Of a stretch of DNA of 64,000 nucleotides, positions 5,443-52,238 are shown piece after piece. Under the pieces are notes generated by a model. It saw only the letters and a program-made list of their open reading frames with translations. It did not search any database and was not told the origin of the DNA. Origin of the DNA: Watersipora subatra (lineage: Eukaryota; Bryozoa; Gymnolaemata; Cheilostomatida; Watersiporidae); the NCBI RefSeq assembly GCF_963576615.1, contig NC_088711.1:63025248-63089247 (forward strand). The letters run 5' to 3'. Position numbers and translations under genes: made by a program. Within the stretch, counting starts at the first letter, position 1, and each line of letters begins with the position of its first letter.

Positions 5443-7391
5443 CTATGTGTATGTACTATGTGTATGTACTATGTGTATGTACTATGTGTATGTACTATGT
5501 GTATGTACTATGTGTATGTACTATGTGTATGTACTATGTGTATGTACTATGTGTATGTACTATGTGTATGTACTATGTGTATGTACTATGTGTATGTACT
5601 ATGTGTATGTACTATGTGTATGTACTATGTGTATGTACTATGTGTATGTACTATGTGTATGTACTATGTGTATGTACTATGTGTATGTACTATGTGTATG
5701 TACTATGTGTATGTACTATGTGTATGTACTATGTGTATGTACTATGTGTATGTACTATGTGTATGTACTATGTGTATGTACTATGTGTATGTACTATGTG
5801 TATGTACTATGTGTATGTACTATGTGTATGTACTATGTGTATGTACTATGTGTATGTACTATGTGTATGTACTATGTGTATGTACTATGTGTATGTACTA
5901 TGTGTATGTACTATGTGTATGTACTATGTGTATGTACTATGTGTATGTACTATGTGTATGTACTATGTGTATGTACTATGTGTATGTACTATGTGTATGT
6001 ACTATGTGTATGTACTATGTGTATGTACTATGTGTATGTACTATGTGTATGTACTATGTGTATGTACTATGTGTATGTACTATGTGTATGTACTATGTGT
6101 ATGTACTATGTGTATGTACTATGTGTATGTACTATGTGTATGTACTATGTGTATGTACTATGTGTATGTACTATGTGTATGTACTATGTGTATGTACTAT
6201 GTGTATGTACTATGTGTATGTACTATGTGTATGTACTATGTGTATGTACTATGTGTATGTACTATGTGTATGTACTATGTGTATGTACTATGTGTATGTA
6301 CTATGTGTATGTACTATGTGTATGTACTATGTGTATGTACTATGTGTATGTACTATGTGTATGTACTATGTGTATGTACTATGTGTATGTACTATGTGTA
6401 TGTACTATGTGTATGTACTATGTGTATGTACTATGTGTATGTACTATGTGTATGTACTATGTGTATGTACTATGTGTATGTACTATGTGTATGTACTATG
6501 TGTATGTACTATGTGTATGTACTATGTGTATGTACTATGTGTATGTACTATGTGTATGTACTATGTGTATGTACTATGTGTATGTACTATGTGTATGTAC
6601 TATGTGTATGTACTATGTGTATGTACTATGTGTATGTACTATGTGTATGTACTATGTGTATGTACTATGTGTATGTACTATGTGTATGTACTATGTGTAT
6701 GTACTATGTGTATGTACTATGTGTATGTACTATGTGTATGTACTATGTGTATGTACTATGTGTATGTACTATGTGTATGTACTATGTGTATGTACTATGT
6801 GTATGTACTATGTGTATGTACTATGTGTATGTACTATGTGTATGTACTATGTGTATGTACTATGTGTATGTACTATGTGTATGTACTATGTGTATGTACT
6901 ATGTGTATGTACTATGTGTATGTACTATGTGTATGTACTATGTGTATGTACTATGTGTATGTACTATGTGTATGTACTATGTGTATGTACTATGTGTATG
7001 TACTATGTGTATGTACTATGTGTATGTACTATGTGTATGTACTATGTGTATGTACTATGTGTATGTACTATGTGTATGTACTATGTGTATGTACTATGTG
7101 TATGTACTATGTGTATGTACTATGTGTATGTACTATGTGTATGTACTATGTGTATGTACTATGTGTATGTACTATGTGTATGTACTATGTGTATGTACTA
7201 TGTGTATGTACTATGTGTATGTACTATGTGTATGTACTATGTGTATGTACTATGTGTATGTACTATGTGTATGTACTATGTGTATGTACTATGTGTATGT
7301 ACTATGTGTATGTACTATGTGTATGTACTATGTGTATGTACTATGTGTATGTACTATGTGTATGTACTATGTGTATGTACTATGTGTATGT
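5443..7391. repeat. 13-bp satellite, about 150 near-identical copies
   Basis: A head-to-tail array of CTATGTGTATGTA. Every unit I compared is identical over about 1.95 kb. Because 13 is not a multiple of 3, all three plus frames cycle through the same 13-residue peptide without a stop, which creates false reading frames of more than 650 codons. It is not protein coding. Such uniformity implies very recent expansion or homogenisation, or an assembly that filled the array with consensus. Confidence 0.97.
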
Positions 7392-16772: not shown

Positions 16773-19700
16773 CTAGACTAGTGTCACGGATGAGTCATAT
16801 TGCTCTAGCAGTTTCAGTGCTTCTCTCAATGCATCAACATTGTTGTTGACAAGTACTGATGTTTTGATGCTCTGCTCCCAGGTCATGTAGTAGTGTTCTT
16901 GTTTCTTGGTCTCACTGTTGATAACAACATTAAGTTTGCCCATGAGTTGGCTCATGATGTGAGCGTGGAGCCTATCAGATATGACCACCTGAAACAGACA
17001 GCAGCTGATGTATCTCGTCGCCTCTCGCTGACATTAATTAAAGATTACAAACTTGATACTAGTATTAATTGATACTAGTATATACATGCGTATGAGAAAC
17101 CCTACCTTTCCTCTCGCTAGAAAGGCTATCCCTGTCATTGTTCTTAGCTGATGATCTTCCCAGAAATCGCTTGACTGCTGGCCCATCCATTCATCACTCC
17201 AATCTGTTACCTAACACGACCCAAGCTTAACATAACTGGTATATAGTAAGTCCTCATGATCAAACCACGCGGCTTGAGTACATGCATCTCTCACGCAACA
17301 TATGAACCTTTACGTTACTTGTTTGCATGAACAATGGAAAGTTAGTCATACAGTTGATATAAAAGCAAAATACAGTCTATTAATGCTAATAAACTAGCAG
17401 TCAGGTGTAATAACTATGCGCACAGTTATTCCATGATGCGGCAAGGTAGTCCAGTGGTAGTGTGCTTGACTGCAAATATGGATATTTGAGTTTGATTCCT
17501 TTGCAGTGTAATTTTCTTTCCTAACGCTCTTAGCGTGGCTTGGGACAGACACGGCTCTTATTATAGCAATCAAGGTCATAAACAAGGTCATATGAATAGT
17601 CATCATTGTATTAGCAATGCTAGTATTCAGGTCAAGCCAGTTTTATATAAAACTAGAAAATCAGTTAAACATGAAGTAAGTATTATTTGTGTTACTGAAA
17701 TCTATCCATTAAAGACAAGTGCCAGAGCAGTTGGAGGCCAAATGAAGTACTTGGTAATTCAGTTGGTCATGTTATAAAATTATTTTACAGCTAGTTAGTC
17801 AAAAATATATCTGCAAGTTTTGTTTCAAAGTTTGGCAGAAATTTTATGTAATAACGAGTCGCCGCCTCTATGCTGGGTCTTTCAGCAAACAAGCTATGAG
17901 TTGTTGTTTAAAATGAGAACACAACTCTAGTATGGTATAAAAAGCATTAATATGTAAATGACGGATGATTCTTGACTGTTTTTTAGCAGCTTATGAAGCG
18001 AATTCTAGATTTAGTGTTAAGCATTTTAGCTGAGAGTTGTCTATAATAACAATGTTCTGTTTATTCTATTGGTGGAAAGTTATATGAAAAAAGTTGGCTA
18101 AGGAGATAATAGTCATAAAGTAGCCTTTGGGCGGTATCTAAAATGAATATCATTTGAAGAAGATTTGGTTGCAGAGGAGAAATAGTACTTAGTAAGCTGC
18201 CTCTGCAAGGGTATCAAGGATTGGTCAACTAAGCTTTTAATACCAAGATTTTTATACCAGCCATTTGAAAGGTTGGACCAAGTGCTCTCATTTGAAAGGT
18301 TGAACCAAGTGCTCTTATTTGAAAGGTTGAACCAAGTGCTCTCGCATCAGCAAAAAGCGCTAATGATATCTAGTGGTAAATTAATGTTTATATGTTCACC
18401 AACCTGTACTTTGAGATTGGCTGGAAATTCCGGCATTGCATCATTTTGGGATTCCCAATCATTCCTTTTCAGCCATATGATGTCATAAACAGGCACAATG
18501 TTCATTCTTATACTGCCTACAGCAAATGCCGAGTCGGGCGCCAAATAGTTGTGCGTGTTTTTAAAATACTGTTCTGCCAGGTCGTAGGAATATCTGCAAA
18601 TAGGAGAGTTGTAGAAGCAATGACAAGCTTTAAAATCTGGAGGTAACCAAAGAGCTTGCAACACAAGTTACGGACAGTTCTTGGTTGAGCTTTGATAGAC
18701 ATAAACATACATGTGAATACCTCAAAAAATGACAATATGAACATCATTGTTCGTCTCCTACATACAGAGAAGCTTAGTGATTATAAATGAGTTTTTAATA
18801 TTATATTAACGAGTACATAATCTATCATACGTATAAATAGTTATGTCTAGCTGACAAACACTCACCTGTCTCTGAGCACAACATGCACATCTTTATGTTT
18901 CCCGAATATAGCAGCAAATTGTTCGATTTCAGTGCATGGCGCTATTGGGTGGCAAACGCTGATTGGAAATACCATGATGCGATTATTGGGAAAACCTTCT
19001 ACTGTAATTGTTGTTACAAATTCATGAGAAGGATGGCCTATATAACCTGCGCCTTGAATCAACACAACCTGAAAATACATTTAAAATTTTTTACAGAAAA
19101 GTCTTACGATTGGCTACCTAAAGGAGATCAAAAGTCAGCAAGTTGCCGAAAGTACTAAGAGCATTTGTTCTATCTCACGAAACAAACTGCAATAAATTGT
19201 TTACCTATCGTGAGTTATGAAAGAAAAACAGCACCTGTGCTAGCTGCCATATATCATTGCAAGTATTCTATGGAATAATTCAAACCCTTTACTAGATAGT
19301 CAAAGATTGCATCACATAAAGCAACTTCAAAGTCAGCATGTTGCATTCACAGCTTCTGATATGTTTAAACCTCCCATGTATTTGTCTCTTTATGGCTAAT
19401 GCTATACATATTCAGATAGTTGTGCTAATAACACAGATATAAGCCAGACACTTCATACCATTCATAACTAGCTAATAAAAAGGGTGTCATAAAATGTTTT
19501 GTAATGAATGGAAACCAACCAGTTCAGGGTCATCTTTATTGATTTTGCTAAAATCACACTCTCTTCCAGGATAGAAGCAGTGATAGATGAGTTCAATACC
19601 CATCCTCTGCAAGATTCGTCGTTGACCAATTGTGATCAGGTGGTCTCCTTTGTTGAACCATTGGAAAACATTGACTAGTACAGCTTTCTTGTATTTGCCT

Positions 19701-22700
19701 GCAAGCACCCAGAGTTGTCTTCTTTTTAAGTTGTATTTTAGAATGTGATAAGTGAAGGCATAAAAAATTATTTATTAATTTTAGACAAATTTTTTTGTTT
19801 TCAGTATTATGTGCTACAGTCAATAGATTGTCTATGAACTAGACTTAAAAACTGAAGTCTACATGCAGTGGGTATCCCACTCTATAAATTGAACTATAGT
19901 CTTTGCAAATTGGACTACAGACTTCAGGTTCTGCAACAGTTGAGTTGGTCAATAGGTGTAAAAGCACAAGAAATGCTTTTAGTTAAATTGTTGGCAGTAG
20001 TATTTAAGATTAGATGATTTTCTTCTTACACAAATCAAATCATTTGAAAAACTAAGTAAAGATACACACTTGCTCACCGACCTGTAACCATGTATCATGA
20101 GGGTGCCATACATGTAAGTAGAGTTTAACCTCATTTGCTGGACACCAGTCAGTATATAAGATCTAGTAAGTAAGCTTGACTTTTTTAATCTGTTCAACTG
20201 ATACTATAATAGCTCATCATGAATAGGCGATGCTATTTATTAGCATCGACCGCTGAGGATCTGACTTTAGCCCTAGGATATTATCCGCAGACGGATCATT
20301 ACGACAAGCTGGTAAACTTTGTTTGCAAAATCAACTTTTTAAAAAGTATCTGGTGAAAGCAGCAGAGGTCTTCACGGTTTGATACACACATCACATTTTT
20401 TAAGACAGAGAGTGATACCCCCTAGAAACAGAGAGTGATGTTTCCTAGAAATGTACACTTACTGTGTATAGAGACAGCACACTGTACTCCAATATTTTAG
20501 TAGATTCTTTAAACATTAAGTAAATGAGATCATAGTAAGTTGATAGATTCATATGACGAGTGAGTTTAGATTTGGACAAATACGTGTGAATGTGGCATTA
20601 CGTTACCATATAACTTACTAATGCTGGCGGACTGATTGTAACAAGGCTAGAGTTACATCACATGCATGTCTTACCAATGATGTGGGTGAACACTTGCTGA
20701 TGTACCTCGTATGCTGCCTTTATCAGGGTGTTTGTGTCTTTTGCACGGATAGAATTGCTGTTAGCTTTTGTAGGATTTTTATAAGCATTTATCGCCTGCA
20801 AGATAACATTTTCTGCTACAATTTTTACACGTGTGTTGATTCAGTTCATTGTGAAGACTCTTGAAATGAAGGCATTATTTTAACACAGTTCAACTTCACC
20901 AAACTTTCCTAACAAGAATTTGTCTATGGCCATTTTTAACACTTTTAGTCTCAGACACCTTTAATCTATAATCTTTAGTACTTCAAAAAGTATTTATTAA
21001 GCAGACTATGCTCGTGTTGTACCGAGTGTACTTGTGTTGGACTGAGGTATCGGCCTTCTCTCTTATGCCAACTAATGAAGGTTTAAACGGCTATTATTAG
21101 AATGACATATTTTCTAATTTATAAATGGAGAAGACAAAAACACTGAAGAACAAATAACCAGCATATCTTTAAGTTGGCAGAAGACAAAAATGAGATCCGA
21201 TGAGTTGTTAGCCAGCCCTAATGATCAAATGTTAACAGGTCAGCAGGCTATGACAGCTCTTTTGGTAAGCTATCATAAAGTATACACATCTACATATGTT
21301 GGTGATTATATCAAACAATCTATAGCTTTGAACTTTTATGACAAGCACAAGTGTAGACTATTTGTAACTATCTACAACAGAATAGAAGCTCAAATATTTT
21401 TCAATTAAATGGATGTATGTGAGTGAAGATGGTTTCACTAACTTGAGCAAAGTGAAAAATCTAAGTTTTACGTCTAATATATAAACGATAGATTTTTTCC
21501 AGATGAAAACTAAAACAATTAGTCTACCACATTCAGTATAGTATAACATAATTTAAAAGTTTTTTATTTAACATTTTTATATATAACTTTTAAAACGGGT
21601 CTATTAAAAAAGTCAAAGGTAGTTAGTTATCAGTTAATCAACTCCTAAACATTAAAAATTCCAAAACACAAATGTGCAAAGATAAATTTATAATTTTTTT
21701 CTCTTCGCACATTTCAAAAAGATTTAAAATTATACATACCATGTTTGGCACATCTCCAACCTGTTGCACAGCCTTAGACATCACTTCATGTCTCTGCTGT
21801 AGTGTTTCTTTAATTGCAAGAGGAGGTAACTTTACTCTGATTTGATTATCGTTAGGGGAGGAAAGCGGTGGCAGAACGGAGAAGAGAATAACAACTGCAG
21901 TCACTACCACAACCAGGCTCAAGGAAGCATTCGTATCTAAACATAAATTCAGTCAAAATGTTTGCATATCGTAAATAAAGAACTACATTTATGGAAGAAA
22001 GAAATGACATTTCTCAAATACTAAAGCGTATTTTTATGTCTATTAAGATGTTAGATGTCTACGGTGTTCAGTGTACACAGTATCCACCGAGTCCACCGTG
22101 TTCACAGTGTTCATAGAGTTAACGGGCACCCACATGGTGTACATAGTGCAGTGGGTGTCCATGGTGTACAAGGCGTTCACGGTGTTCAGTGTCTGAAAGT
22201 TTGTTGCCTTGTTCAGCTTCTAGCAATTTTTTTTAATTCTATTTTTCTTCTTAAATTACTATCGTAAACATGTGCTGTCACTCTATCCTCACATGCTGTC
22301 ACTCTATCCTCACATGCTGTCACTCTATCCTCACATGCTGTCACTCTATCCTCACATGCTGTCACTCTATCCTCACATGCTGTCACTCTATCCTCACATG
22401 CTGTCACTCTATCCTCACATGCTGCCACTCTATCCTCACATGCTGTCACTCTATCCTCACATGCTGTCACTCTATCCTCACATGCTGTCACTCTATCCTC
22501 ACATGCTGTCACTCTATCCTCACATGCTGTCACTCTATCCTCACATGCTGTCATTCAGGCCTCCAAGGTGCTTAAATTTCAAGACTAAAATATGATATTT
22601 TAGAACTTTGTGAAATTATGCGAAATTAACATTAAATTTTTGTGCAACATGTAAATGTAACATACCTTTAAAACGACACAATTTGGGAAACAGGTAAATG

Positions 22701-23641
22701 ATGAGGCCAATCAGCATAACTCCTCCAAGAAGCCAATTGGTCGAACTCACGATAGTTTGTCCAATCAAGAAGAAGGTCAATGCCACAAGAATTCGTTTAA
22801 GCAGGTTGAAAGTAGCGTGACCCACGACAGAGGTGTACTTTAATATCACACACGTAGAAATGATTGTGTAAGTAACATGAAAAGCTGCTGAAAAGAGGCT
22901 GGACATCCAGCCAAATGTGAAAGGAAATTTTGCAGTCAGTAGCAATGTTGCTGCAGCAGATGCGATGATTCCGGAAGCTACCATGCTGGCCGTTTGTAGT
23001 ATCTCAAGTTTGCTCCTCATACTTGCTGCATCTCTTTGTAGCATTTTAAGGTTTATATTTCTCACTCCAAAAAGAATGTTAGAAACAAAGGCCATCGATA
23101 ATCCATAGAGGGCGCCTGATCGCAAAGACGGCTGCCAAACGAAGCCTACAGCGCCCATTACTACCAATGGCAGTGATACTACAATGTGTGACTGTAATTT
23201 CGTTCCGATTAGCATCGACGTAAGCACCGCTGTCGTTATTGGTTCAAATGCTTTAATAGTAAATGCTGAGCCTGTATTTACAAATGCAATACTAGCATTT
23301 GTTGCTAGTGTGGCGAGAGCGTGGCATGTGTATAGAGATATCCGGCATGGCTCAACTTTCTCTTCAGCCAATGGAGAACTGTCCTGAGAGACCATAGCCT
23401 CAGTACCAACCCAGCTTTGGCCGACTCCACGATCAAGTAGATATATGGCCAATCGGAGTACGACTGCTCCTACCACGAGTTGCACAAGAGTGAGCAACAG
23501 GACAGACATCCATTGCTCACTGATATCAGGGGAAGCAGACGACTGTATAGCTGTACGAGCAAATAAGTGAGCGCAGAAGGAAAACAGAGTCCATGTGGTG
23601 AACCAGAAACCACCGTAGAATACTCTAGAGAGCTCAGCCAT
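16773..23641 (-). CDS. Fused phosphate-translocator-type transporter and polysaccharide pyruvyl transferase
   Basis: Seven minus-strand exons: 23641-22666, 21936-21740 (or 21736), 19698-19520, 19068-18866, 18593-18404, 17210-17106 and 16988-16773, about 689 residues in all. Exon 1 encodes a ten-helix transporter. It ends at AAAG then GTATGT in phase 1, and the next exon starts in the complementary phase (G+AT gives Asp). That exon has no in-frame ATG before its membrane helix (LSLVVVVTAVVILFSVLPPL), so it needs an upstream exon, and exon 1 supplies one in frame. All later junctions match in phase except exon 2 to 3: the strong donor after ATG is phase 0 while exon 3 needs phase 1, so either the weaker GTATAA donor 4 nt on is used or a small exon is missed. 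If exon 1 is not spliced, the transporter instead ends 16 codons later at 22616. Proposed job: PEP import into the Golgi coupled to pyruvylation of glycans. A likely 5' UTR acceptor (GCTTTTTAG) lies just before the ATG. Confidence 0.62.
17390..17640 (+). repeat. tRNA-like dispersed repeat
   Basis: It contains GGTAGTCCAGTGGTAGTGTG (A-box type) and TTTGAGTTTGATTCCT (B-box type), after GCACAGTTATTCCATG. Closely similar modules lie inside the repeats at 36900-38176. It falls between exons of the fused glycan gene. Confidence 0.45.
18267..18350. repeat. Minisatellite, about 27 bp x 3
   Basis: Direct copies of a unit containing TTTGAAAGGTTGAACCAAG followed by TGCTCT, in an intron of the fused glycan gene. 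Confidence 0.8.
20212..20560 (+). repeat. Dispersed non-coding repeat, copy A
   Basis: About 350 bp, alignable along its length with 27326-27670. Shared landmarks are CATCATGAATAGGC, AGCCCTAGGATATT, CACACTGTACTCCAATATTT and GATCATAG. There is no coding capacity and no clear terminal repeats. Copy A is in an intron of the fused gene. Confidence 0.75.
22060..22200. repeat. Degenerate GTGTTCA/TCCA minisatellite
   Basis: Imperfect short units of the type GGTGTTCAGTG, TCCACCGTG and GGTGTACA, next to the cleaner 21-bp array in the same intron. Confidence 0.5.
22270..22552. repeat. 21-bp minisatellite, about 13 copies
   Basis: Head-to-tail copies of a 21-bp unit ending TCACTCTATCCTCACATG, with one visible variant copy. 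Both strands are open, which gives false frames. The array lies in the 729-nt intron that joins the transporter exon to the transferase exons. Confidence 0.95.
22666..23641 (-). other. TPT/PPT-type transporter module of the fused gene
   Basis: A single exon of 325 codons with about ten hydrophobic segments. It matches the triose-phosphate/PEP translocator branch of the drug/metabolite transporter superfamily rather than the typical nucleotide-sugar branch. Visible matches are FTIKAFEPI (residues about 127-135), SNILFGVRNINLK (187-199) and HATFNLLKRILV (about 275-286). The Lys-Arg pair at 282-283 and the Lys at 130 sit where plastid translocators bind the substrate phosphate, as far as I recall the solved structures. 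The substrate is inferred, not shown. Kozak context is good (AAAGATGG). Confidence 0.88.
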
Positions 23642-26635
23642 CTTTTGTTTTCCTAAAAAGCAATGTTCAATTACTTCAGTAAAATTAACCGAACAACTAT
23701 GTTAGCATTGTATCCAGTTGATAGCTTTACATAAAGCATATTATTATAAACAGCACTGAATGGTGTGATCATCTCTTACTTAAATGTGTATGTTACTAGT
23801 GCTTCCTGTTCAACATTAAACTTTGCTATTTCAAAGGAAGCCAACACACATTCTGTACATGTTCAACTAACAATATCAGCTGATACAAGATCAGGATAGT
23901 TTCTGCCAAGTGCAGTCGGGTTGGTTTGACGACTCCAAACATTCACTAAATAAAATCAATACAACTTTATTATCAAGCAAGTCCCAAAATACCTACAATG
24001 AATTTAATTCAAATGCATCCTTAAATAACTTTATGAATTCTTAAATAACTCTATGAACTTTTAAATAACTCTATGAGCTGTTAACTAACTCTATGAATTT
24101 GGCTTTACATAAATGTTGGCATGATTGGTCAAGGTTAGTTCAACTACCTTAATCGTGTTGACGTTACTAAAACTATTAGTACAAAATATTTTTATGATAT
24201 GGCTTTTTAGCAGCGGTGTAGCTGCCTAGCTATATTAAAAGATCCTATCTTATTAATAACATAGTCATTACAGATTTTTATTACTCCGGAAGGTATACAC
24301 TCCTCACCTGTGTGATTAGATGATACATTGCGCCCACAACTACCAGCCCACCTATGGGTAGTTAATAACGATCGATCATAGACTTATCACTTCATTTAAC
24401 ATAGATTTACTTTACAAACTTAACAGCTCATGTCAAATTATTGAATTTTAGTACAGTATATTCATCAAAATTATTATCACACTATATGGAGTTGTCCATT
24501 CATTGAATAGGTGATAGAACTGCATCTGAACTGTCATGAACTTACAAGCTGTTTTGTAGATTTGAATAGAGAATCATGTAAGCTGTGGGCGTAGGCTTAG
24601 GCTTAGGCTTAGGCTGAGCATAACATAATAAATAATCTACGAATAATACATGAATCAACATAAAAGAGCAGTTAGTCATTTCTGTTCTCTAACCACCAGC
24701 TTGCTATCAGATCTGATGAAGCTATTTTAGTGTCAGGATTTTTAGCAACCAAAGCAACAAATCTTAGAAGCTGCTGCAGAGGTGTCTCCCTGCAGTATAA
24801 TATGTTACAGAGGTTGTGCACCATTGGCCAGGTTAGCTCACACCATCCCTGTCAAGAGTTTATCATTCACCTTAATACGTAGCGATGAGAGGTAAGGTAC
24901 ATACCTTTAGCAAAGTAGATACACTTTGTTCAATATCTTAAACTTTTAATGTATGAGAAACTTTTCCAGAGTTGGCATGTTTTTTCCTAAAAAATCAATT
25001 TGAAACTAGTGCAAATCACTTAAACAGCAGGCAGTAGATCTTGAAGACTTGATAGAGTTTTGTAGTGATGAAGGTACTAAGGCTAGAGCTAGAATAAGTG
25101 ATGACTGCTCATCTTCACACCAGATGGTGTTTCCATAGCAACAGCTATTATCACCACGCGTGGACGTAAGCACTCGCATCTCATCCCAAGTGTTCAAAAT
25201 GGATGATTGGCTCTTAAATGTGGCTTATGTGACATGGCGACAGCTTGACCTTTTGGCAGTTCTTTCCATTCACAGGCTGTTTAAATCACATTTAAGCCTA
25301 CCAGAGCTATCAACCAGCGATATTCTTTCACAGGCATCTATGAATTTGGATATGCTTAAACTGCACTGTCTCATGCCTGTGTTTGCAATATTTAAAAATT
25401 CCATCGATTTAGACAATTCTACAAAGATCAAAGATGCACATAGTTTTAGCAGCAGCTCAATTTCACTGATACGCTAATGTATCAATGAAAGAGAGCAAGA
25501 CTCAGAATCCGATGTTTTGAGTGTTTATTAGCTTTTGATTCCTACAAAACTTGATATCATTTTATTACTTATGGGTGCCAGCGTCCCAAACCACAAATGC
25601 ATGATATGGCTTTAAAATATAATTCAAAATATTTTTAATGCGCTTACATGATAAAGCAAAATGTTTTTATGTTTTACAAATCAGCCGATATCAACATCCA
25701 CTTCAAACAAATACATATAGCTCATACTCTGTAATCAAGTACACAAAAAATCTCCAGAATTTGTTAACAATGCTATCAGGCCTAACTATTAGCTACCGTT
25801 CTATGACCTACAAAATGAATGCTCGTTCTTGTCATATTAACATATTGACAACACTCACTATAAGCTCCCTGCGTAGTCTTACCTTTGATTGAGCAAGGGT
25901 AGAGCTGAGATACCAAATGTAGGAACGGTGAAGCTAACAAGATGTGATAAATATGAGGATGGTAGAGAGAAACTCTTCCGTAACCAGAAAAAATTAGTCA
26001 GAGCCGCAGAGCCAGTCATGCATAGAGATATTGTACTAGTTCTGCGCTACTAGCTTCAGCTTAACTGAAAACCTATTATTCACCTTCATTCAGCTTTTGA
26101 ATTGCTAAGACTGAAAGCTGAAGCGCAAACAAGACTTGAATAGGCATGCGAAAGTGACTCACAAAACGGTTGTAGAAAATTGTCGCAGGCCGTAGGAGAG
26201 AGCGGCTGATGAGGTGGAACATGCCATCTGCCACTTTAAGGTGGGTTGCTTGTTTGAGATGATATTGTACACGTAGCTCTGTCACTCGATGGTGTAGTAG
26301 AAAGCTGGTATAGTACTTACTGATGTTTACATTGGTGGTGACAGCCTGACAGCCTGACAGCAAAGTACAGCAACTCGACATCAAGGGGCAGTGAATCAGA
26401 TTCTGTATGTTTAATTATTTTATTTACGTAACTCTTCAACTTGAAATACAATCATTATTTATAAAACTATTATTTTTATTTGTTTTTAGTGAGTTACTTC
26501 ATTTAGATTTTAGTTTGCTGTAGAGCTTCTGTTTGTTATGCTGCTGAGTGTGTTTTGTTGAAGAAATTTAACTGGAGCTTTAATATAGTCATAAGAAATC
26601 TTTTGCCGAAGGTTGAGTTTTTGTATTGTTTCTGC

Positions 26636-33900: not shown

Positions 33901-36089
33901 TTCACATACAGGTATTGTCCTTGTAGCTATAGAAAGCTTTATAGAACCACTCGAGTTTTATTTCTCATCAAGGTACCATCTAGCTTTCTATTTATGATTT
34001 ATCACGTAAACAAGTAGTAACTCAGTTTATTGTTACAAAGAACTGCTATAAATAAAGCTATGTAAGATATACATATCTTTGTTACAATTTTAACAATTAA
34101 CAAATTACAATTGTTACAATTGTGCAATAGGCTAACTGCAACGGTAGCTGTAATGTACTGGGTGTTATTATGTACAACAAACAGCAATAATGAAAGGAAA
34201 AGATTATATGTTTCATAAGTAATTTTGATATTCATGTAAACTCTATTCATATTCTCATATTGCAACATTGATTCGAATATTGCAGGTGTAGTTTCAGCAA
34301 TGACACAATTGTATAGCCTAATAACTCTATTGTATAGCCTAATAACTCTATTGGCGAGAACTATTCTAGCAGAGCTATTATGCTTTTCAGCTTTAGCAGT
34401 GAAGTGTTAACTTCCTTAAAGTTCTGAAGATAATCACTGTATTGTTATACAATAATGTATCCATACATACATCACATATATTGCATGTTAGCATTATTAT
34501 TATTAGTATGTCAGCGTAATTATATATCTTATTTTTATATTAATTATATTAAAATCAAAACATTATCATAGTGATTGAAATTTTTTTTTATGTGTGATTG
34601 AGCAATCAGTTTTGCAAAAGGAATTTGTACCGGCACATCTGATTGGCGATAATGACCAATGGTAGCTCTCACTGGTATGGGTTTAGGTCTTTAGGGTGTT
34701 GAGAGGCTCATGTAGTGACAGTTGAAGGCTAGTGCTATTTCTAAGTGATTTACTTTTTTCGTCACTCGTAAGGGTAGTTCTCAGAATGATGTGAAGTTAT
34801 GAGAAAGTTTACTAACTGTATTTACAGAGGCTACTTAGCAATCGGATGTAAACGTTCATCCCGTAAGTTTAAATTGGCTGTTAGAGAATTCAGTTAAGCT
34901 CAATAGAATTCAAATGCGCATTGAGGAAGTCCTCAGTTGGTGTATGATTGCTCTATGCTGATTATTATGAAGTTGTGCTATCTATGAAAAAATTGATTTG
35001 ATAACATTCCCCTTCAATTTTAGTATATTCTATATGGAATATAATCTGGTAAATATTATACATATGTGCATATACATAATTATACATATATACATGCATA
35101 TATACATATATACATGCATATATAAATATATATAATGTACAAGTACATACATGTATATACGTATATACACACACATGTATATATCTATAAATATACATAT
35201 ATAAATGTGTATGTATATATAAATATAGTTTATACATACACATTTTATAAATCTATATTTCTATATATTGTATAAATTTATGTTTTATGGCATATAAATA
35301 TTTATATACATGTATATATATTTATATAGATATATCGGCACTTCTAACAATATTAAATATTGTCAATATTTAATTAATAGTATTTAAATATTATATATTC
35401 AAACTTTGAATAAAGAAGATATAAGGCATATTCATCTCATCTGTATTTCTGTTATTCTTTTTAGTATCGACCCTTTACGAGTGATGAAATGCAACCCTGT
35501 TGATGGGGAGTGTCAGTTTGTTTATGAACAAGATGGAAGTGCTCAAGAACAGTTTCAATATACCAGTGACCATCTACGTGGAGGCACCCCATGGCTCGAG
35601 TACAGCTACCCGTATTACATCAGTCTAGCCCACAACGTCGCTGCCACTTATAAACCGTACCAAGACTTCGCTATCTATAATGCTAATCTAGTTGTGATAA
35701 ATGTAGTCGATTGGAGAGTAGTATACGTGAGTCGCAATATAATTGCCAATTCTCGATGGCTGAAAAGTGAACCTGTCATAAGGAATCATACGATAGTCGC
35801 ACCATTTTGGTACCCTACCGGCATCATAATGCAATCAAAAGACATTATCGATGTCTCGTGTCACCTCAATGATGCCAGTGGACACGTGCTACGGCTAAGC
35901 GGAATTGAAAGCATCCTTTCACAGGTCATAGCTAAAGATAAATCGGAACAAACTCGTGGAGGTCCAAAAGTGCGAGTTGTGCAGCAATATGTACTCGAAT
36001 CTACCAAAGAATTTTATAACAACTCATGGATTTTTACAGGAGATATTATTGGCAAAACTGTGGAAGGGAAGGATATACTATTATCGTAG
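27946..36089 (+). CDS. Type II membrane protein, five-bladed propeller glycan enzyme-like
   Basis: Six exons: 27946-28066, 30924-31105, 31954-32134, 33158-33332, 33705-33911 and 35465-36089. All are GT-AG and in phase, giving 496 residues. A short basic N-terminus (KRRK) and one helix at about 11-26 predict a Golgi type II topology with a lumenal body. The body has features of the five-bladed beta-propeller carbohydrate enzymes (GH43/GH130 and GT108 group): LMDPRLV near 216, EINWIPLD at 272, LYFTYSIDP at 284 and LRGGTPWLE at 326. Those families include mannoside phosphorylases and beta-mannosyltransferases. I cannot name the exact family or substrate. N-glycosylation sequons are present (NQT at 27, NHT, NNS). 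AATAAA at 36167 is a plausible polyadenylation signal. An acceptor just before the ATG (TTTTTATTTTTAG) implies a 5' UTR intron. The neighbouring divergent gene is also a glycan enzyme. Confidence 0.82.
28395..29945 (-). mobile_element. LINE fragment, restriction-like-endonuclease class, 5' truncated
   Basis: On the minus strand, degenerate pieces follow the order of R2/R4/NeSL-like non-LTR elements. First comes reverse transcriptase (INHLLYMDDLELFGK, then RMRFGVEKCAML), then AINTVAVLS and KARKLMTMNR, then a zinc-knuckle-region remnant (EYKKGHDKAAQLIHWNSC). A PD...D endonuclease remnant (RRPDILVRAKE, then VDIAV) and VMPVVIGALGTVSNK follow. Several stops and frameshifts break it. The 3' end is a TAA/ATT microsatellite near 28395-28425, typical of these elements. 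It lies antisense in intron 1 of the propeller gene. Confidence 0.8.
30595..30735. repeat. AT-rich tandem repeat
   Basis: Repeated ATATGTTTAATATAATAAT units in intron 1 of the propeller gene. Confidence 0.85.
32738..33119 (+). mobile_element. Non-autonomous Helitron-like element
   Basis: The 5' part reads ATATATTTCTCAAAGTATGTCC, as in many invertebrate Helitron-like repeats. The 3' end has a GC-rich hairpin (ACGGGCAACGCCGGGT) about a dozen bases before a terminal CTAG, followed by T. It is about 380 bp, non-coding, and lies in intron 3 of the propeller gene. Confidence 0.6.
34300..34350. repeat. Short tandem duplication
   Basis: TTGTATAGCCTAATAACTC occurs twice in direct tandem in intron 5 of the propeller gene. 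Confidence 0.8.
35030..35345. repeat. ATATACATGT-type microsatellite
   Basis: A long stretch of TATATACATGTATA and TATAAATATA alternations immediately before the last exon of the propeller gene. The open frame on its minus strand is low-complexity noise. Confidence 0.9.
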
Positions 36090-38329: not shown

Positions 38330-41300
38330 CGCGTCTTTTAACAGAAACATGGAAGTTTGAGCGCTCGCCTCAAGATCTTAGCCGTTATGAATAGTGTGCT
38401 TTTCTACAACTCATTTGTATTGATTGTTGCCGGTATTTGGGCAAGTCACATTTGATGTGCAGGTGTTATTGTACCCAATGTTCCAATGACCACTGGTGGC
38501 CACTGGTATTACCGTTGCTCTTACATGACAGCACTTTTTAATCTTCTCTTGGAGTGAGAGATATTTTTCCGGTTTTTCTTTTTTGCTAGCTATGTTGAGA
38601 TCATTGGGTACTGGAGCCTTCTTGCTCTCTTCGTTCACAACTACAATATCTGGTTGGTTTGCCAACATATATTTTTTAGTCCAACTGTACAAGTCCCAAA
38701 GGAGCTTTCCATGGTCGTTTTCATTGACCTTCTCTGAAGCTTCCTACCAATGTTGTGGTTTATAGAGGTCAAACTCATTACATACATGCAGACTTCTGTA
38801 CACTATACCTGCAACATGATTATGCCACTCAGTGTATGCATGTATGGCTAGCTGCTTGCATCCACTCATGATGCGTTGGATGGTCTCTGGTGCATCCTTG
38901 CTCAGTCTGCATCTTGGATCATTTTTAGTGCGATAGATCCGTGTTTGGAGTTGCCAGTTAGTTCACCTTTGTTTAGTCACATATACATGTATGTCTTATG
39001 GAGGTCACTAACTTCAGATACTCGCCTGATCGTCGGCCTATGTAGAGGTTGGGTGTGCCGGTCAGGCTCCTCATTGTCAATGACTGCTTCCATTGTCACA
39101 GCACTCAAATAAAATTTGGCCAGTAAGTTGTCTATGATGCTATGAAGGTTGCATAGGCTTTCATACTCTGTTCTTCTTCTTTCATTGTCTGCTGTACATT
39201 TTAGATCTTCAATCTTTTCTACTACTACACATGTAAGTTTTAACCTAGCAGTATCAGACTTTGGGTTAAAGGCTCCACGCATGGCCAGCAGCTTGCAGGC
39301 TGTTATGTTTGTTTCCTTGATGGCTTCTCCAGTCCACCTTATTATACCTGCTGGATACCTTATTATGCCTGCTGGTTACCTTATTATGTCTGCTGGATAC
39401 CTTATAATGCCTGCTGGATACCTTATTATGCCTGCTGGATACCTTATTATGTCTGCTGGATACCTTATTATGCCTGCTGGATACCTTATTATGTCTGCTG
39501 GATACCTTATTATGCCTGCTGGATACCTTATTATGCCTGCTGGATACCTTATTATGCCTGCTGGTTACCTTATTATGTCTGCTGGATACCTTATTATGTC
39601 TGCTGGATACCTTATTATGTCTGCTGGATACCTTATTATGTCTGCTGGATACCTTATTATGCCTGATGGATACCTTATTATGCCTGCTGGATACCTTATT
39701 ATGCCTGCTGGATACCTTATTATGTCTGCTGGATACCTTATTATGTCTGCTGGATACTTTATTATGTCTGCTGGATACCTTATTATGCCTGCTGGATACC
39801 TTATTATGCCTGCTGAATACCTTATTATGCCTGCTGGATACCTTATTATGCCTGCTGGATACCTGATTATGCCTGCTGGATACCTGATTATGCCTGCTGG
39901 ATACCTTATTATGCCTACTGGATACCTTATTATGCCTGCTGGATACCTTATTATGCCTGCTGAATACCTTATTATGCCTGCTGGATACCTTATTATGCCT
40001 GCTGGATACCTGATTATGCCTGCTGGATACCTGATTATGCCTGCTGGATACCTTATTATGCCTACTGGATACCTTATTATGCCTACTGGATACCTTATTA
40101 TGCCTGCTGGATACCTTATTATGTCTGCTGGATACCTTATTATGTCTGCTGGATACCTTATTATGTCTGCTGGATACTTTATTATGTCTGCTGGATACCT
40201 TATTATGCCTGCTGGATACCTTATTATGCCTGCTGAATACCTTATTATGCCTGCTGGATACCTTATTATGCCTACTGGATACCTTATTATGCCTGCTGGA
40301 TACCTTATTATGTCTGCTGGATACCTTATTATGTCTGCTGGATACTTTATTATGTTTGCTGGATACCTTATTATGTCTGCTGGATACTTTATTATGTCTG
40401 CTGGATACCTTATTATGTCTGCTGGATACTTTATTATGTTTGCTGGATACCTTATTATGTCTGCTGGATACCTTATTATGTCTGCTGGATACCTTATTAT
40501 GTCTGCTGGATACCTTATTATACCTGCTGGATACCTTATTATGTCTGCTGGACACCTTATTATACCTGCTGGATACCTTATTATGTCTGCTGGACACCTT
40601 ATTATACCTGCTGGATACCTTATTATGTCTGCTGGACACCTTATTATACCTGCTGGATACCTTATTATGCCTGCTGGATACCTTATTATACCTGCTGGAT
40701 ACCTTATTATGTCTGCTGGATACCTTATTATGCCTGCTGGATACCTTATTATGCCTGCTGGATACCTTATTATACCTGCTGGATACCTTATTATGTCTGC
40801 TGGACACCTTATTATACCTGCTGGATACCTTATTATGTCTGCTGGACACCTTATTATACCTGCTGGATACCTTATTATGCCTGCTGGATACCTTATTATA
40901 CCTGCTGGATACCTTATTATGTCTGCTGGATACCTTATTATGCCTGCTGGATACCTTATTATGTCTGCTGGATACCTTATTATGCCTGCTGGATACCTTG
41001 TTATGCCTGCTGGATACCTTATTATGCCTGCTGGATACCTTATTATGCCTGCTGGATACCTTATTATGTCTGCTGGATACCTTATTATGTCTGCTGGATA
41101 CCTTATTATGTCTGCTGGATACCTTATTATACCTGCTGGATACCTTATTACCAGCAGTGCATAGGTATTTATTCACTCAACCTGGTTTCTGGCAATGAGC
41201 TGGTTTAAAAAGACCGGTTGATGACCTTTCTTGTATTCTTGTATTTCTTGTATTTGGTAATGGCCTTATAATGCATTACGGTTTCATGGTTGATGCTGCT

Positions 41301-48100: not shown

Positions 48101-51100
48101 ATAATCACAGACATTGCGGTACTGAAATTACCGTAATTTTTGTGATTAATTTTTGTTTTCAAGTAACTCTATACAACTCACTGAAATTCTAAATTTTAGA
48201 AATGTAGAATAAACCATGGAAGGAACTAGACAGAGTTTATTATTGTGAGAATCTATTAAAATTGATCGAATAAGCCGTCATATCGATGTTAACCTGTCTT
48301 TTTTATCTCATCACCAACAGCCAGAGCAACCTAAGATTGTAATGACCATAACACAGCCACTTAGCTTGAGTCAGATACAAGCTAAAAAAAATGTTGATTT
48401 AGACATTCGGTGCCCTCTGATCGCACGAATCTATTTATGGTGTTTTGAAGTACATAAGAGGCGACCGACCGTCTGTAAAGAAATAGAGTGTATATTGCTA
48501 TTACCCATGTCAAATTTGAGCTTCAGTTGCATCTGGCAGAACCAGGTTAAACATGACCACAGCCATTTAGTTGCAAGTTTGTGAGCTTTGGTTACCTTGG
48601 CTGCATTTTTAACTGAAGTTTCTGATGATACAATCTGCCATAGTCATGTGGCTGCGGGTTGCTCAACAGCATCTCTAATTTAGAGGTGTGGAAATTTCTA
48701 ACCCTGATCCGTAGAAGCTACATAACATTAGGAGTAAAGTGATCGTTTTTCGTAGCCGGCTGATATTCATACATGTACAGTGAATGTTAGCCACTCAGCT
48801 TGTCTGCCATTCCATGCCTGTATCTTTCTAAGTGTCTATGAAAACATGATGTTCGTTAACTTGCAGCTATTGTTAATAGCATGTGAATCAAACTATGCTT
48901 TGTAGGTCTATCCTTATTTGAAGTGAAAAACTGATTGTCATGATGAAATAGAATTTGGAGTTATAATACCCTTTTGAGTGGGAAGAAACAGTAATTGTTA
49001 GCCTTAGCTCTAGCCTGTCTTGACAAGCTGTTGTTTTTGCGTAGTTGTCCCCTCCGTCGAGCGGCGAGCAACAACAGCTTGTCACAAGACGTACTGCACC
49101 TGATGCATCAGCTGCACTTATAAGGAGTTGTTCTCTTTCGTCTACGCGGCTCGGCTGCGATGTTATTCCGGTCGCTCCATTGGTAATCATAACGGATTTC
49201 ACGCAAAAATTTATGTAGAAAAATTAAGATAAGAACGTTTAACTGGCGACCCCTCTCTGCAGTAAACGTTATTAGGATTTGAGAACTTAGGCAACAACAG
49301 CGACTAAACATGTCGTTATTTGTGCGCTCAGTCAGTTTTATTTCTATTTTTGTATCAGTCAGTTTTATTTGCTCTTATGGATTTTATTTTGAGTTTATTT
49401 TATTCTTAAGTTCTACTAAAGTTTATGACAGAAACTGGTCTTTAGTTGAACGTTGTAATCTTGTTTTTTTTTACATAAATTTTTGTGTGAAATCCGTTAT
49501 GATTACCAATGGAGCGGCCAACATAACATCGCGGCCAAGCCGGGTAGACGGAAGAGAACAACTCCCTATAAGTGCAGCTGATGCATCAGGTGCAGTACGT
49601 CTTGTGACAAGCTGTTGTTGCTCGCCGCTCGACGGGGGGACAACTACGCAAAAACAACAGCTTGTCAAGGCAGGCTACCTTAGCTCTCACAACAGGGTTG
49701 TGTAACCATCATTGTCAAGTAATTGAATGCAAACCTTCAGCAGTTAAAGATATTATGATAGTTTTGTTATGCGTTATGGTTCAGTCATCAGAGTTTTTGA
49801 TTTAATGAATTTTATTCTGCTTTATTTATATTATGTTTAGATTTTTCAAAATAATCAATTTTTTGTTGTTAAATTCCATTGTTTCATTGTTTATTCTGAC
49901 AGCCAAATGTGACATTTAAAATTATTTGCTCAGCTCTTCGACAACATTGTATTCAAGTTGTAGGCTTTTGCACTTTTTATTCTTCTAGCGAATGCCAAAC
50001 ATCAACTGCTCTTGGATTGAAGGCGAGATCATAGCTCTAAATTCAGTGGACATATCAGTAGCTATGGCTACTGATTCAGGGTTGTTAATGCCAGTAGTAC
50101 CAGAGGCTAATACTAAATCACTAGAGGAGATATCACGCATTACAAAGGTATGTGAATCAAAGACCACTTCTTGGACATTGTGACCTAATTACCGTAGTGG
50201 TGCCTGCAATTTTAACAATCTATTTCAGGAACTAGGATTACATGCTGAGGATGGCACCCTTCAGTCTAGCAAGATGTCAAGTGGTTCCCTTACGTAAGTC
50301 TCATTTTGGATGAAACCATGGATGGTAATGCAGCATGATAAGATAAATATGATCTTTTGGTTTAACACTCTTCATAGCAGAATAGGTTGTCTTTAACCAA
50401 CCATGGTATTTACATGGATATAAGTAGTGAAGTTGTTCGTAGGTTCAACCTTATTTGTTGGAAATCAGTTTGCTGATTGGATTAATTAACGCTGATGCTT
50501 GGGATAATTTGGGATATGTTTTTTGATCTGATCCTACCCTACCTACGCGGTTTCCCATTTGCCCTTTATTTTTTTTGCAGTTTATGTAAAATTACAAAAT
50601 TTGAGTCACTTCATTCGCTATACGCTTTCAATGCAATTCCAAATTTTCAAGTCTATTGGACAATTCTTGAGCTATCACCGAAATACCGAGAGCACTTGAA
50701 TGAAAAATGTCTGTCGCCAGAACATTCGTAGCCTGTCTTGACAAACCATTGTTTTTGCGGAGTTGTCCCCTGTTGAGCGGGCGAGCAACACAACAGCTTG
50801 TCACAAGACGTACTGCACCTGATGCATCAGCTGCACTTATAGGGAGTTGTTCTCTTCTGTCTATGCGGCTTGGTTGCGATGTTATTTCGGTCGCTCCATT
50901 GGTAATCATAACGAATTTCGCGCAAAATGTATGTAGAAAAAAATAAAGTTACAACTGTTAACCAGCGACCAGTCTTTGTTGTTAACTTTAGTAGAACTTA
51001 AGAATAAAATAAATTGAAAATAAAATCCATAAGAACAAATAAAACTGACTGATACAAAAATACAGAAATAAAACTGACTGAGCGCACAAATAACGACATG

Positions 51101-52238
51101 TTTAGTCGCTGTTGTTGCCTAAGTTCTCAAGTTCTACTAAAGTTTACCGCAGAGACTGGTCGCTAGTTAAACGTTATACATGTAATCTTCTTTTTTTCTA
51201 CATACATTTTTGCGCAAAATTCGTTATGATTACCAATGGAGCGACCGACATAACATCGCAACCAAGCCGCATAGACGGAAGAGAACAACTCCCTAGAAGT
51301 GCAGCTGATGCATCAGGCGCAGTACGTCTTGTGACAAGCTGTTGTGTTGCTCGCCCGCTCAACGGGGGACAACTCCGCTAAAACAACAGTTTGTCAAGAC
51401 AGGCTACGAATGCTCTGGCGGCAGACATTTTTCATTCAAGTGCTCTCGGTATTTCGGTGATAGCTCAAGAATTGTCCAATAGACTTGAAAATTTGGAATT
51501 GCATTGAAAGCGTATAGCGAATGAAGTGATTCAAATTTGAAACTTTTATTACTGTCTAGGATCATTGGACTTACTTCAGTATACAAGGTTGGACTTCAAT
51601 GTGTTGCAACCAAGTATTCAATGCAATTTTTCCCTCCAGTTCACTGTCTCAAATTTATCCTTTTGTTAAACATAGAACCAATGAATAGCTAAGTTGTAGC
51701 AATTTCTACTTTAGTTGTGTACTCTAATCTACATTTAGTCCCATGAACTTTTCTTTCATGTTTAATGTTTTGTTTCACATCGATCATAAGCAATCTGAAA
51801 TTAGTGATAATAAAGAAAAGAAAAAATCCGTATGTAAATATTTTATGGATTATTAGCCATGATAATAGAGATACAGTCCCCAATGCACGTAACCCGGCAA
51901 GATGCTGGACCTGAAAGTCAACGAATAAACCTGACGGTGGGCTATCCCAGATTATCCAACAGATACTGTTTCCTTTGTTACTAAATGTCATTCGTTATTG
52001 TAGAGTATCGAATCTAGGAATGTACGGGGTAAAGGAGTTCACTGCTGTCATCGACCCTCCACAAGCAACGATATTAAGTGTCGGCTGTGAACAGGCATCA
52101 TTACACGAAGGCAGCATTGTTCCTGTTTTAAACTTTTCGCTGACATATGATGGCAGGGCGATAGAGGCTGATCAAGCTGTCCAGTTTCTCTCCGTAGTGA
52201 AAAGGCTTTTGGAAAATCCAATTGAGATGGGCCTCTAG
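42144..52238 (+). CDS. PDHX: Pyruvate dehydrogenase E3-binding protein (component X), lipoyl-less form
   Basis: Seven exons: 42144-42304, 42816-42911, 42992-43223, 47924-48061, 49989-50147, 50229-50293 and 52004-52238. All are GT-AG and in phase, giving 361 residues against about 500 in human PDHX. PDHX anchors dihydrolipoamide dehydrogenase (E3) to the mitochondrial PDH core. Residues 1-50 are basic and hydroxylated with no acidic start (MANARAFVTVLK..., ending HYSTSALK), a typical mitochondrial presequence. Residues 57-95 are the E3-binding domain (GPSVRLLLTLYDIDPASVT). From about 145 the core fold follows: MRKAIAQRVSQSK, INDFIIKACATAL, DISVAMATDSGLLMPVV, VSNLGMYGVKEFTAVIDPPQ. The E2 active-site motif (DHRVVDGA) is replaced by TYDGRAIEADQA, with no catalytic histidine, so this is PDHX and not DLAT. 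No lipoyl-domain exon is visible, and exon 1 splices in phase (AG+G) straight to the E3-binding exon. Confidence 0.88.
43640..44956. mobile_element. Decayed DNA element with ATAAAACCT ends
   Basis: The left end (ATAAAACCTCTTAATTGAATG) and the inverted right end (TATAAAACCTTTATTTGACC) are similar. GGTGTTCAAATAG-type blocks lie near both ends. The middle is non-coding. The ends are approximate, and the blocks could be two solo fragments. It lies in PDHX intron 3. Confidence 0.35.
44957..47775. mobile_element. DNA element with CCCTAG terminal inverted repeats
   Basis: The left end ATACCCTAGAACACTTATGT is inverted at the right end, which on the minus strand reads ATACCCTAGGACACTTATAT. The CCCTAG tip recalls piggyBac-type ends, but no TTAA duplication is seen. 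The interior holds AT-rich repeats at 45966-46830 and small frames at 46909-47184 and 47217-47429 (MAKQIKITSFFGKAKT), with no recognisable transposase. About 2.8 kb, in PDHX intron 3. Confidence 0.5.
45966..46830. repeat. Four tandem copies of a 180-250 bp unit
   Basis: Copies start near 45966, 46216, 46402 (shortened) and 46624. Each contains TATATTAC, TTTTAATATTGCATTTCA, a CATTATTGCTGTTGTTA block and GGTCTACAGCTTGAATTAAT. Three of the four begin with GTTACATATCGCTGTCA. The array lies inside the CCCTAG element. Confidence 0.85.
49011..49677. mobile_element. Foldback/Mutator-like element with 9-bp target duplication
   Basis: The 667-bp element starts TAGCCTGTCTTGACAAGC and ends with the inverted copy (GCTTGTCAAGGCAGGCTA). 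The inverted arms are about 220 bp long and still closely matched, with a short unique centre. CCTTAGCTC directly flanks it on both sides (49002-49010 and 49678-49686), a 9-bp target-site duplication as in Mutator-like elements. Non-coding, in PDHX intron 4. Confidence 0.8.
50597..51538. mobile_element. Second foldback element inside a larger palindrome
   Basis: The core at 50729-51406 is the same family as 49011-49677. Here the flanks are not a target duplication: 50597-50728 and 51407-51538 are inverted copies of each other, with only a few mismatches over about 132 bp. The whole is therefore one perfect-looking hairpin of roughly 940 bp. Both outer arms encode the same short peptide (SLHSLYAFNAIPNFQVYW and onward). 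It lies in PDHX intron 6. Confidence 0.75.

Follow-up and report, generated by a model that had tools for sequence, protein, structure and literature searches.

In the bryozoan Watersipora subatra, a transporter-like frame lies directly ahead of a pyruvyltransferase-like one on the same strand. This raises the question of whether one gene encodes both activities in a single chain. We examined a window of 64,000 nt (contig NC_088711.1, positions 63,025,248 to 63,089,247), to which all coordinates below refer. Judged from the sequence, the gene probably codes for transporter and transferase as a single protein. We also favour, with less assurance, the more specific reading that this 728-residue membrane protein is a covalent pair of a Golgi phosphoenolpyruvate (PEP) importer and a pyruvyltransferase.

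An eight-exon frame with a carrier half and a transferase half

On the minus strand, eight exons join in one reading frame from 23641 to 16773 (2,187 nt, 728 residues), the stop codon ending at 16773. All seven introns are GT-AG, and the joined frame contains no internal stop, for which reason a pseudogene was rejected. The anatomy given in the earlier note was reproduced throughout. Exon 1 (22666..23641, 976 nt) holds the complete transporter half, residues 1–325, of the triose-phosphate transporter (TPT) family, and ends in ...FPKLCRFK. Directly ahead of the GAAAACAAAAG-ATG is a possible 5' UTR acceptor, TTGCTTTTTAG (23642..23663), so an upstream non-coding exon is likely. Exon 2 (21740..21936) contributes junction residue 326, an extra hydrophobic helix and a linker that continues into exon 3 (20675..20795), where similarity to fission-yeast Pvg1 sets in. 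The transferase occupies exons 4 (19520..19698; weak donor CTG/GTTGGT), 5 (18866..19068), 6 (18404..18593), 7 (17106..17210) and 8 (16773..16988), the last carrying the motif SDRLHAHI before the stop codon.

Residues 12–316 match PF03151, the triose-phosphate transporter family (E 2e-13; 50.7 bits against a curated cut-off of 30; profile positions 5–290 of 291). Five Pfam families were listed at E<=1, a range in which HMMER filters discard most matches above about 0.1. Three of them were weak and unrelated, and none was EamA or a nucleotide-sugar transporter family (Nuc_sug_transp, UAA). The match to TIGR00817, the plastid phosphate and PEP translocators, reached 37.7 bits, far under its cut-off of 317.9, and the carrier was not counted as a member. 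Like the plastid translocators (GsGPT, PDB 5Y78; plant TPT and PPT; TIGR00817), the carrier belongs to the TPT family and retains the phosphate-pocket residues of GsGPT, with K204, Y339, K362 and R363 appearing as K130, Y258, K282 and R283. GsGPT T188 is likewise kept, as T114. It differs from them in its low overall similarity, presumed Golgi location and fused enzyme, and in having a threonine, T111, in place of pocket residue H185. The alignment reaches the end of the 5Y78 segment, at chain position 317 of 329.

The carrier had been called PEP-type. Its phosphate pocket is conserved, but F191 runs counter to this label, mapping to position 262 of AtTPT, where a phenylalanine is thought to exclude PEP from plant TPT. 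According to the excerpt of PMC6981301, a pocket open to PEP either lacks a bulky residue of this kind at AtTPT 262 or has the His and Tyr replaced, as in NspTPT2. Set against this rule, the carrier keeps the Phe as F191, replaces the His by T111 and retains the Tyr as Y258. Of the earlier interpretation, the sequence supports the gene model of a fusion, what the enzyme is and its predicted position in the lumen; the PEP-type assignment is tentative. A phmmer search with the carrier returned no PDB chain at E<=10, a 103-residue piece gave four weak matches (three to SLC35B1 entries, E 1.9–2.8, and one to FtsX, E 1), and a single-sequence AlphaFold2 model of the carrier alone had a pLDDT of 45, too poor for use.

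In the enzyme half, residues 447–681 match PF04230, polysaccharide pyruvyl transferase (E 2e-18; 68 bits against a curated cut-off of 25.3; profile positions 1–277 of 280), and S. pombe Pvg1 (PDB 5AX7) was matched at E 5.6e-30, with 105 identities over 310 aligned residues (34%). Pvg1 D106, R217 and R337, for which catalytic roles are proposed in the part of PMC4872226 consulted, correspond to D450 in exon 4, R557 in exon 5 and R663 in exon 8; H168 corresponds to H506, also in exon 5. Like Pvg1p, a Golgi-membrane enzyme that pyruvylates galactose at the expense of PEP, the protein keeps these residues and has a hydrophobic helix ahead of the catalytic domain. Unlike Pvg1p, its enzyme domain continues the frame of a complete carrier, and in the alignment the C68–C373 disulphide of Pvg1 is absent. 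No N-glycosylation sequon occurs after residue 328; this and the missing disulphide count against the favoured reading.

The junction and its alternative readings

The claim of a fusion depends on how exon 1 is joined to exon 2. As the earlier note had stated, the exon-1 donor (AAAG/GTATGT, phase 1) is strong, ranking among all GTs at the 99.3rd percentile, and exon 2, whose phase matches, starts at 21936 just behind TTTAG. Splicing across 22665–21937 would join AAAG to ATACGAAT. By the same scoring, whose weights are generic frequencies, none of the gene's seven acceptors is weaker than that of exon 2, which stands at the 77th percentile among all minus-strand AGs; this counts against the fusion. 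Between 31800 and 21960, 27 ATG-open, phase-1 donor candidates score at least 4; the exon-1 donor leads them at 5.0, followed by one at 4.5. On the acceptor side, 22 AG sites were listed from 22300 to 21880, and stops close 18 of these. The four open starts are 21936 and three lying inside the helix (21917, 21903 and 21894), so that 21936 is the sole acceptor upstream of the helix that keeps the enzyme frame open. The acceptors at 21903 and 21894 are also open with a phase-1 donor, a point against the fusion, yet they would cut the helix.

The strong hydrophobic helix lies just past the junction, at residues 329–347. No in-frame Met precedes it, as had been noted before, and the first in the enzyme half is residue 378. 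A start there was rejected, since it would remove the helix and presumably confine the enzyme to the cytosol, where it would not meet glycans. We also considered a spliced leader ending in ATG and joined directly to exon 2; this would read ATG ATA CGA ATG CTT CCT TGA and, because it runs into the TGA stop, cannot yield the transferase.

Intron 1 (21937..22665) is 729 nt long, within the span of the other six introns (117–1193 nt), and GC3 is alike in the two halves (0.418 and 0.434); both points favour the fusion. Its GC content of 0.395 is the highest of the seven introns, as against 0.301–0.368 for the others, and this too counts against the fusion. The intron contains a minisatellite (22273–22553) of 13.4 copies of a 21-bp unit, 99% identical. 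A scan for bacterial signals, a tool not designed for animals, gave 2 promoter-like sites in the junction against 2.2 expected, and 0 terminators.

An arrangement of two adjacent genes is unlikely in our estimation. In it, a free-standing carrier would end at 22616, and a type II transferase would begin with a separate small first exon, located either in the interval or upstream of the carrier. Such first exons can be drawn: the minisatellite contains 13 of the 27 ATG-to-phase-1-donor candidates (from 22554, score 4.4), and three others lie outside it, at 28818 (4.5), 25404 and 25374 (both 4.3). The weak exon-2 acceptor would suit this arrangement, as would the excerpted description of Pvg1, itself a type II protein that has an N-terminal helix of its own (PMC4872226). 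Against it, the carrier donor outscores every alternative, the minisatellite takes up about two fifths of the intron, and the intron holds a single ATTAAA (at 22237) and no match to TATAWAW; moreover, a chance agreement of function, order, strand and phase seems improbable. The same ATTAAA and weak acceptor would also serve a gene that makes a free carrier beside the fusion, by alternative splicing or intronic polyadenylation. Past the exon-1 donor the frame stays open for 16 codons, encoding the tail GMLHLHVAQKFNVNFA before the stop at 22616, and a carrier-only transcript is therefore possible. For comparison, the other introns contain 0 to 3 AATAAA or ATTAAA sites each. We give this double output only a small probability. 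The nearly uniform minisatellite could in principle mark a false assembly join that set two distant genes side by side, but this would need matching order, strand, phase and pathway, and the window is without any N. We consider it highly implausible.

A further alternative accepts the fusion and disputes its cargo: the carrier might move some other phosphorylated or nucleotide-linked solute, the enzyme obtaining PEP otherwise or performing another reaction. The low TIGR00817 score points this way, and so does F191, since the apicoplast and diatom TPT1/4 carriers that move PEP have a small residue at that position in the excerpted account (PMC6981301). Against a different cargo, the same excerpt describes the diatom carrier NspTPT2, which keeps that Phe and has its His and Tyr replaced. 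Its PEP exchange was 0.7 (SD 0.6) against 0.2 (SD 0.1) nmol/mg/min in the no-substrate control, a difference within the large error. As the other half of the protein has all the proposed catalytic residues of a PEP-using enzyme, we think a different cargo improbable, and PEP is the substrate assumed for the fusion protein below.

A proposed pathway and its relatives

Altogether, these results suggest a model in which the N-terminal half would form a ten-helix carrier of the triose-phosphate/PEP family that ends on the cytosolic face with KLCRFK. Five K/R residues in the loop at 194–216, together with K/R ahead of the helix, fit a cytosolic carrier C-terminus. The eleventh helix would then lead from the carrier into a luminal, Pvg1-like ketal-pyruvyltransferase, placed presumably in the Golgi by its predicted topology and by analogy with Pvg1. 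The carrier would exchange cytosolic PEP for phosphate from the Golgi lumen. There the pyruvyl group would be passed by the attached enzyme to hydroxyls of a terminal galactose with release of phosphate, and the carrier would export that phosphate again. We lean, somewhat cautiously, towards the view that in an animal lineage the PEP importer and the pyruvyltransferase became one self-feeding Golgi machine, in which the donor enters and is used immediately, and the phosphate set free is carried out.

The same division of labour is described in fission yeast, where, as far as the excerpts of PMC4872226 and PMC6801904 extend, Pet1/Pet2 and Pvg1 are separate proteins, as the earlier note had said of Pet1 and Pvg1. 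Pet1p and Pet2p are PEP transporters that supply Pvg1 in the Golgi lumen; the carrier half is proposed to have the same task, and the likeness drawn here is one of described role. A physical parallel comes from PMC6453868, in which SLC35A carriers form Golgi assemblies with N-acetylglucosaminyltransferases. There too a carrier is held together in Golgi membranes with the transferase it feeds, although those assemblies are non-covalent and involve other families and substrates. If correct, our model provides a natural covalent form of such complexes, with donor import and transfer held in one chain by a single gene. Whatever benefit coupling may bring, it would also offer a natural test case for whether Golgi carrier–transferase coupling speeds glycan modification.

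As a chemical product, pyruvylated galactose has for decades been familiar, in the partial accounts consulted, from nerve glycolipids of the sea hare Aplysia and from a sponge cell-adhesion glycan. The product is thus on record from two animals. As regards the gene, the earlier statement that no animal case was known agrees with our literature searches, which surfaced neither an animal gene or enzyme for pyruvylated galactose nor such a carrier–transferase fusion. By its sequence, the fusion gene is a direct candidate for the animal enzyme.

We also searched for relatives of both halves. In viral_contigs, none was found with the spliced transferase, the carrier or a 2-row transferase alignment, and the last of these had no match in genome_contigs either. 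With an 8-row alignment, 344 matched stretches of genome_contigs gave 325 relatives, and the best 80 were retained; in viral_contigs, 38 stretches gave 1 contig. Neither collection is intended for animal genomes, and both are thus uninformative on the spread of the fusion. PHROGs gave no match at E<=0.001. In a quick tree of 89 rows, the fusion, Pvg1 and a sequence from an alphaproteobacterial MAG (L015) clustered with an SH-aLRT of 92, under the 95 mark; long branches and an odd composition of the fusion sequence were flagged, and the order within this cluster is not settled.

Plasmid records yielded 26 bacterial relatives, of which 20 were listed, and the TPT family had no match in the one plasmid record searched for it. 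By tblastn, polysaccharide pyruvyl transferases of Sphingomonas, Omnitrophota and other bacteria belong to the same family as the enzyme half, with up to 31–32% identity among the matches listed. Unlike the fusion protein, the six plasmid-borne proteins that were translated span 282–355 residues, too short to include a carrier as well. Glycosyltransferase or lipopolysaccharide genes neighbour them at five of the six loci fetched, the sixth record being unannotated.

Structure of the probable fusion gene

The gene runs from 23641 to 16773 on the minus strand, with eight exons and seven GT-AG introns; once joined, the exons give an open frame of 728 codons followed by a stop. The 976-nt exon 1 closes in phase 1 at AAAG/GTATGT, and exon 2 starts at 21936 in the matching phase. 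The product matches the Pfam families TPT (PF03151; residues 12–316, E 2.2e-13) and PS_pyruv_trans (PF04230; residues 447–681, E 1.7e-18), in each case above the curated cut-off and over nearly the whole profile. An earlier note had proposed that one gene joins a PEP-type Golgi transporter to a pyruvyl transferase. Its coordinates and phases proved exact; the observation is confirmed, and the interpretation placed on it is supported in part.

The case for splicing across the junction intron (intron 1, 21937–22665) is built on the DNA sequence, with splice scores weighted by generic frequencies. Of 3,539 minus-strand GT sites scored, the exon-1 donor ranks at the 99.3rd percentile. It also has the top score where an ATG opens a frame that runs to a phase-1 donor scoring at least 4: over 31800–21960 there are 27 such cases, of which eleven are exon 1 and starts nested in it, 13 fall in a minisatellite and three lie elsewhere (28818, 25404 and 25374). 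Upstream of the extra helix that follows the junction (residues 329–347), 21936 alone keeps the enzyme frame open among 19 AG sites between 22300 and 21937; since stops lie immediately 5' of exon 2 in this frame, AG sites between 22665 and 22300 would be closed too. Three further open exon starts (21917, 21903 and 21894) all fall within the helix, and two of these match the exon-1 donor in phase. As had been claimed, the enzyme half has no ATG of its own before the helix, its earliest in-frame Met being residue 378. Intron 1, at 729 nt, is inside the span of the other six introns (117–1193 nt), and the two halves have similar GC3 (carrier 0.418, transferase 0.434). Against the junction, none of the gene's seven acceptors is weaker than that of exon 2 (77th percentile of all AG sites), and intron 1 has the highest GC content (0.395, the others 0.301–0.368). 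Moreover, a transcript left unspliced would encode the carrier with a 16-residue tail, and one ATTAAA lies within the intron. Overall, carrier and enzyme probably form one fused protein.

The junction intron also contains a minisatellite (22273–22553; 21-bp unit, 13.4 copies, 99% identity), whose minus strand stays open and translates as the repeat MTACEDRV; 13 of its GT sites resemble phase-1 donors, with a score of 4.4.

The enzyme half and its relatives

The enzyme half matches the fission-yeast galactose pyruvyltransferase Pvg1 (PDB 5AX7) with a phmmer E of 5.6e-30 and 105 of 310 aligned residues identical. PMC4872226 describes Pvg1 as a type II protein of the Golgi membrane that is supplied with PEP via Pet1p and Pet2p; D106, R217 and R337 are proposed as catalytic residues, and mutation of H168 altered acceptor use. 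By alignment, the three catalytic residues correspond to D450, R557 and R663 of the fusion protein, and H168 to H506. Pvg1 C68 and C373, which land on cysteines of the 5AX7 chain and so verify the numbering offset, are both absent from the fusion protein.

Bacterial relatives reached 31% identity in plasmids (26 records) and 32% in genome contigs (the best 80 of 325 relatives). In a quick tree of 89 rows (all 87 fetched loci, Pvg1 and the fusion protein, none dropped), the fusion protein and Pvg1 grouped with a single enzyme from an alphaproteobacterial MAG (locus L015, 2501–3460; SH-aLRT 92). Order inside this trio was not resolved, and long branches and odd composition were flagged. The bacterial enzyme may represent a donor-like lineage, or its placement may be a long-branch effect.

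Topology and cargo of the carrier half

TPT-family carriers have ten helices and a cytosolic C-terminus. Hydropathy at a cut of 1.3 detected seven of the ten expected carrier helices, and the extra helix is the strongest hydrophobic segment of the protein (2.76). Five K/R residues in loop 194–216 and the residues KLCRFK before the extra helix fit a predicted cytosolic carrier end and luminal enzyme. No N-glycosylation sequon occurs after residue 328, so the predicted luminal part contains none; for luminal placement this is a neutral or slightly unfavourable sign. The structure model was of too poor a quality to inform topology.

Among the five Pfam families listed at E<=1, the carrier matched TPT and no nucleotide-sugar transporter family. 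The plastid subfamily model TIGR00817 gave E 1.6e-9 and 37.7 bits, far under its cut-off of 317.9. The pocket was mapped by aligning the carrier with the solved plastid translocator GsGPT (5Y78) and a plant TPT sequence, which itself matched 5Y78 at E 7e-58. In GsGPT numbering, Lys204, Thr188, Tyr339, Lys362 and Arg363 are all conserved (K130, T114, Y258, K282 and R283), as is Phe 263 (F191), and His185 is replaced by T111.

According to PMC6981301, Phe262 of Arabidopsis TPT, the equivalent of F191, is thought to exclude PEP, and apicoplast and diatom carriers that move PEP have a small residue there. The same text describes a diatom carrier, NspTPT2, in which the Phe is retained and both His and Tyr are substituted. 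It exchanged PEP at 0.7 (SD 0.6) nmol/mg/min, equal to 23% of its rate with phosphate; the control without substrate gave 0.2 (SD 0.1) nmol/mg/min (6.9%). This is a weak precedent for PEP exchange despite the Phe. Unlike NspTPT2, our carrier keeps the Tyr, and with Phe kept and His replaced its pocket therefore neither proves nor excludes PEP. The assignment of PEP as cargo derives mainly from the attached enzyme.

A possible pyruvylation pathway and the gene's surroundings

It is fairly likely that the gene makes a fused protein that combines PEP import with pyruvylation. The carrier would bring in PEP from the cytosol as phosphate leaves the lumen, the attached luminal enzyme would move the pyruvyl ketal onto terminal galactose, and the phosphate freed by transfer would power the next exchange. 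Since public databases already contain uncharacterised animal proteins carrying PF04230, what is new here is the fusion together with the proposed pathway rather than the domain itself.

The abstract of PMC6453868 places SLC35A carriers and N-acetylglucosaminyltransferases in common assemblies, bringing carrier and transferase together as proposed here, but non-covalently. Fusion and channel passages in the review PMC9368800 concern cell fusion, tags, engineered chimeras and ion channels, and contain no natural carrier-enzyme fusion. In animals, glycolipids of Aplysia kurodai contain 3,4-pyruvylated galactose and the sponge Microciona prolifera has the 4,6-form (PMC6801904), in agreement with an account of sea hare and sponges (PMC6994554), and the sponge trisaccharide is involved in cell adhesion (PMC7828597). 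The relevant passages of these three papers name no animal enzyme for pyruvylated galactose; neither do the titles and abstract openings among the matches listed by literature searches, which covered few subscription papers.

Elsewhere in the window, Pfam identified a plus-strand UBX-domain frame convergent with the fusion gene (ending at 16434, before its own stop), a Fumble-family (pantothenate kinase) gene in two frames (61109–61591 and 62223–62654), a 2-oxoacid dehydrogenase acyltransferase domain frame (51915–52235) and a CENP-B/Tc5-type transposase DNA-binding domain (59068–59367). The UBX, Fumble and acyltransferase frames, like the spliced structure of the fusion gene, would fit an animal genome. 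Of ten frames scanned, five lacked any Pfam match at E<=0.001; one frame without a match, of 233 aa on the plus strand (35388–36086), resembles a true coding exon. A 13-bp tandem repeat (5443–7391; 149.9 copies, 100% identity) leaves three plus frames open, and a 21-bp repeat (39336–41150; 86.4 copies, 94%) carries long open frames on both strands, its unit equal in length to that of the intron-1 minisatellite but different in sequence. Related copies on both strands at 48891–51378, encoding ITNGATxITSQPSRxDxREQL in the ORF list, are probably a dispersed repeat.
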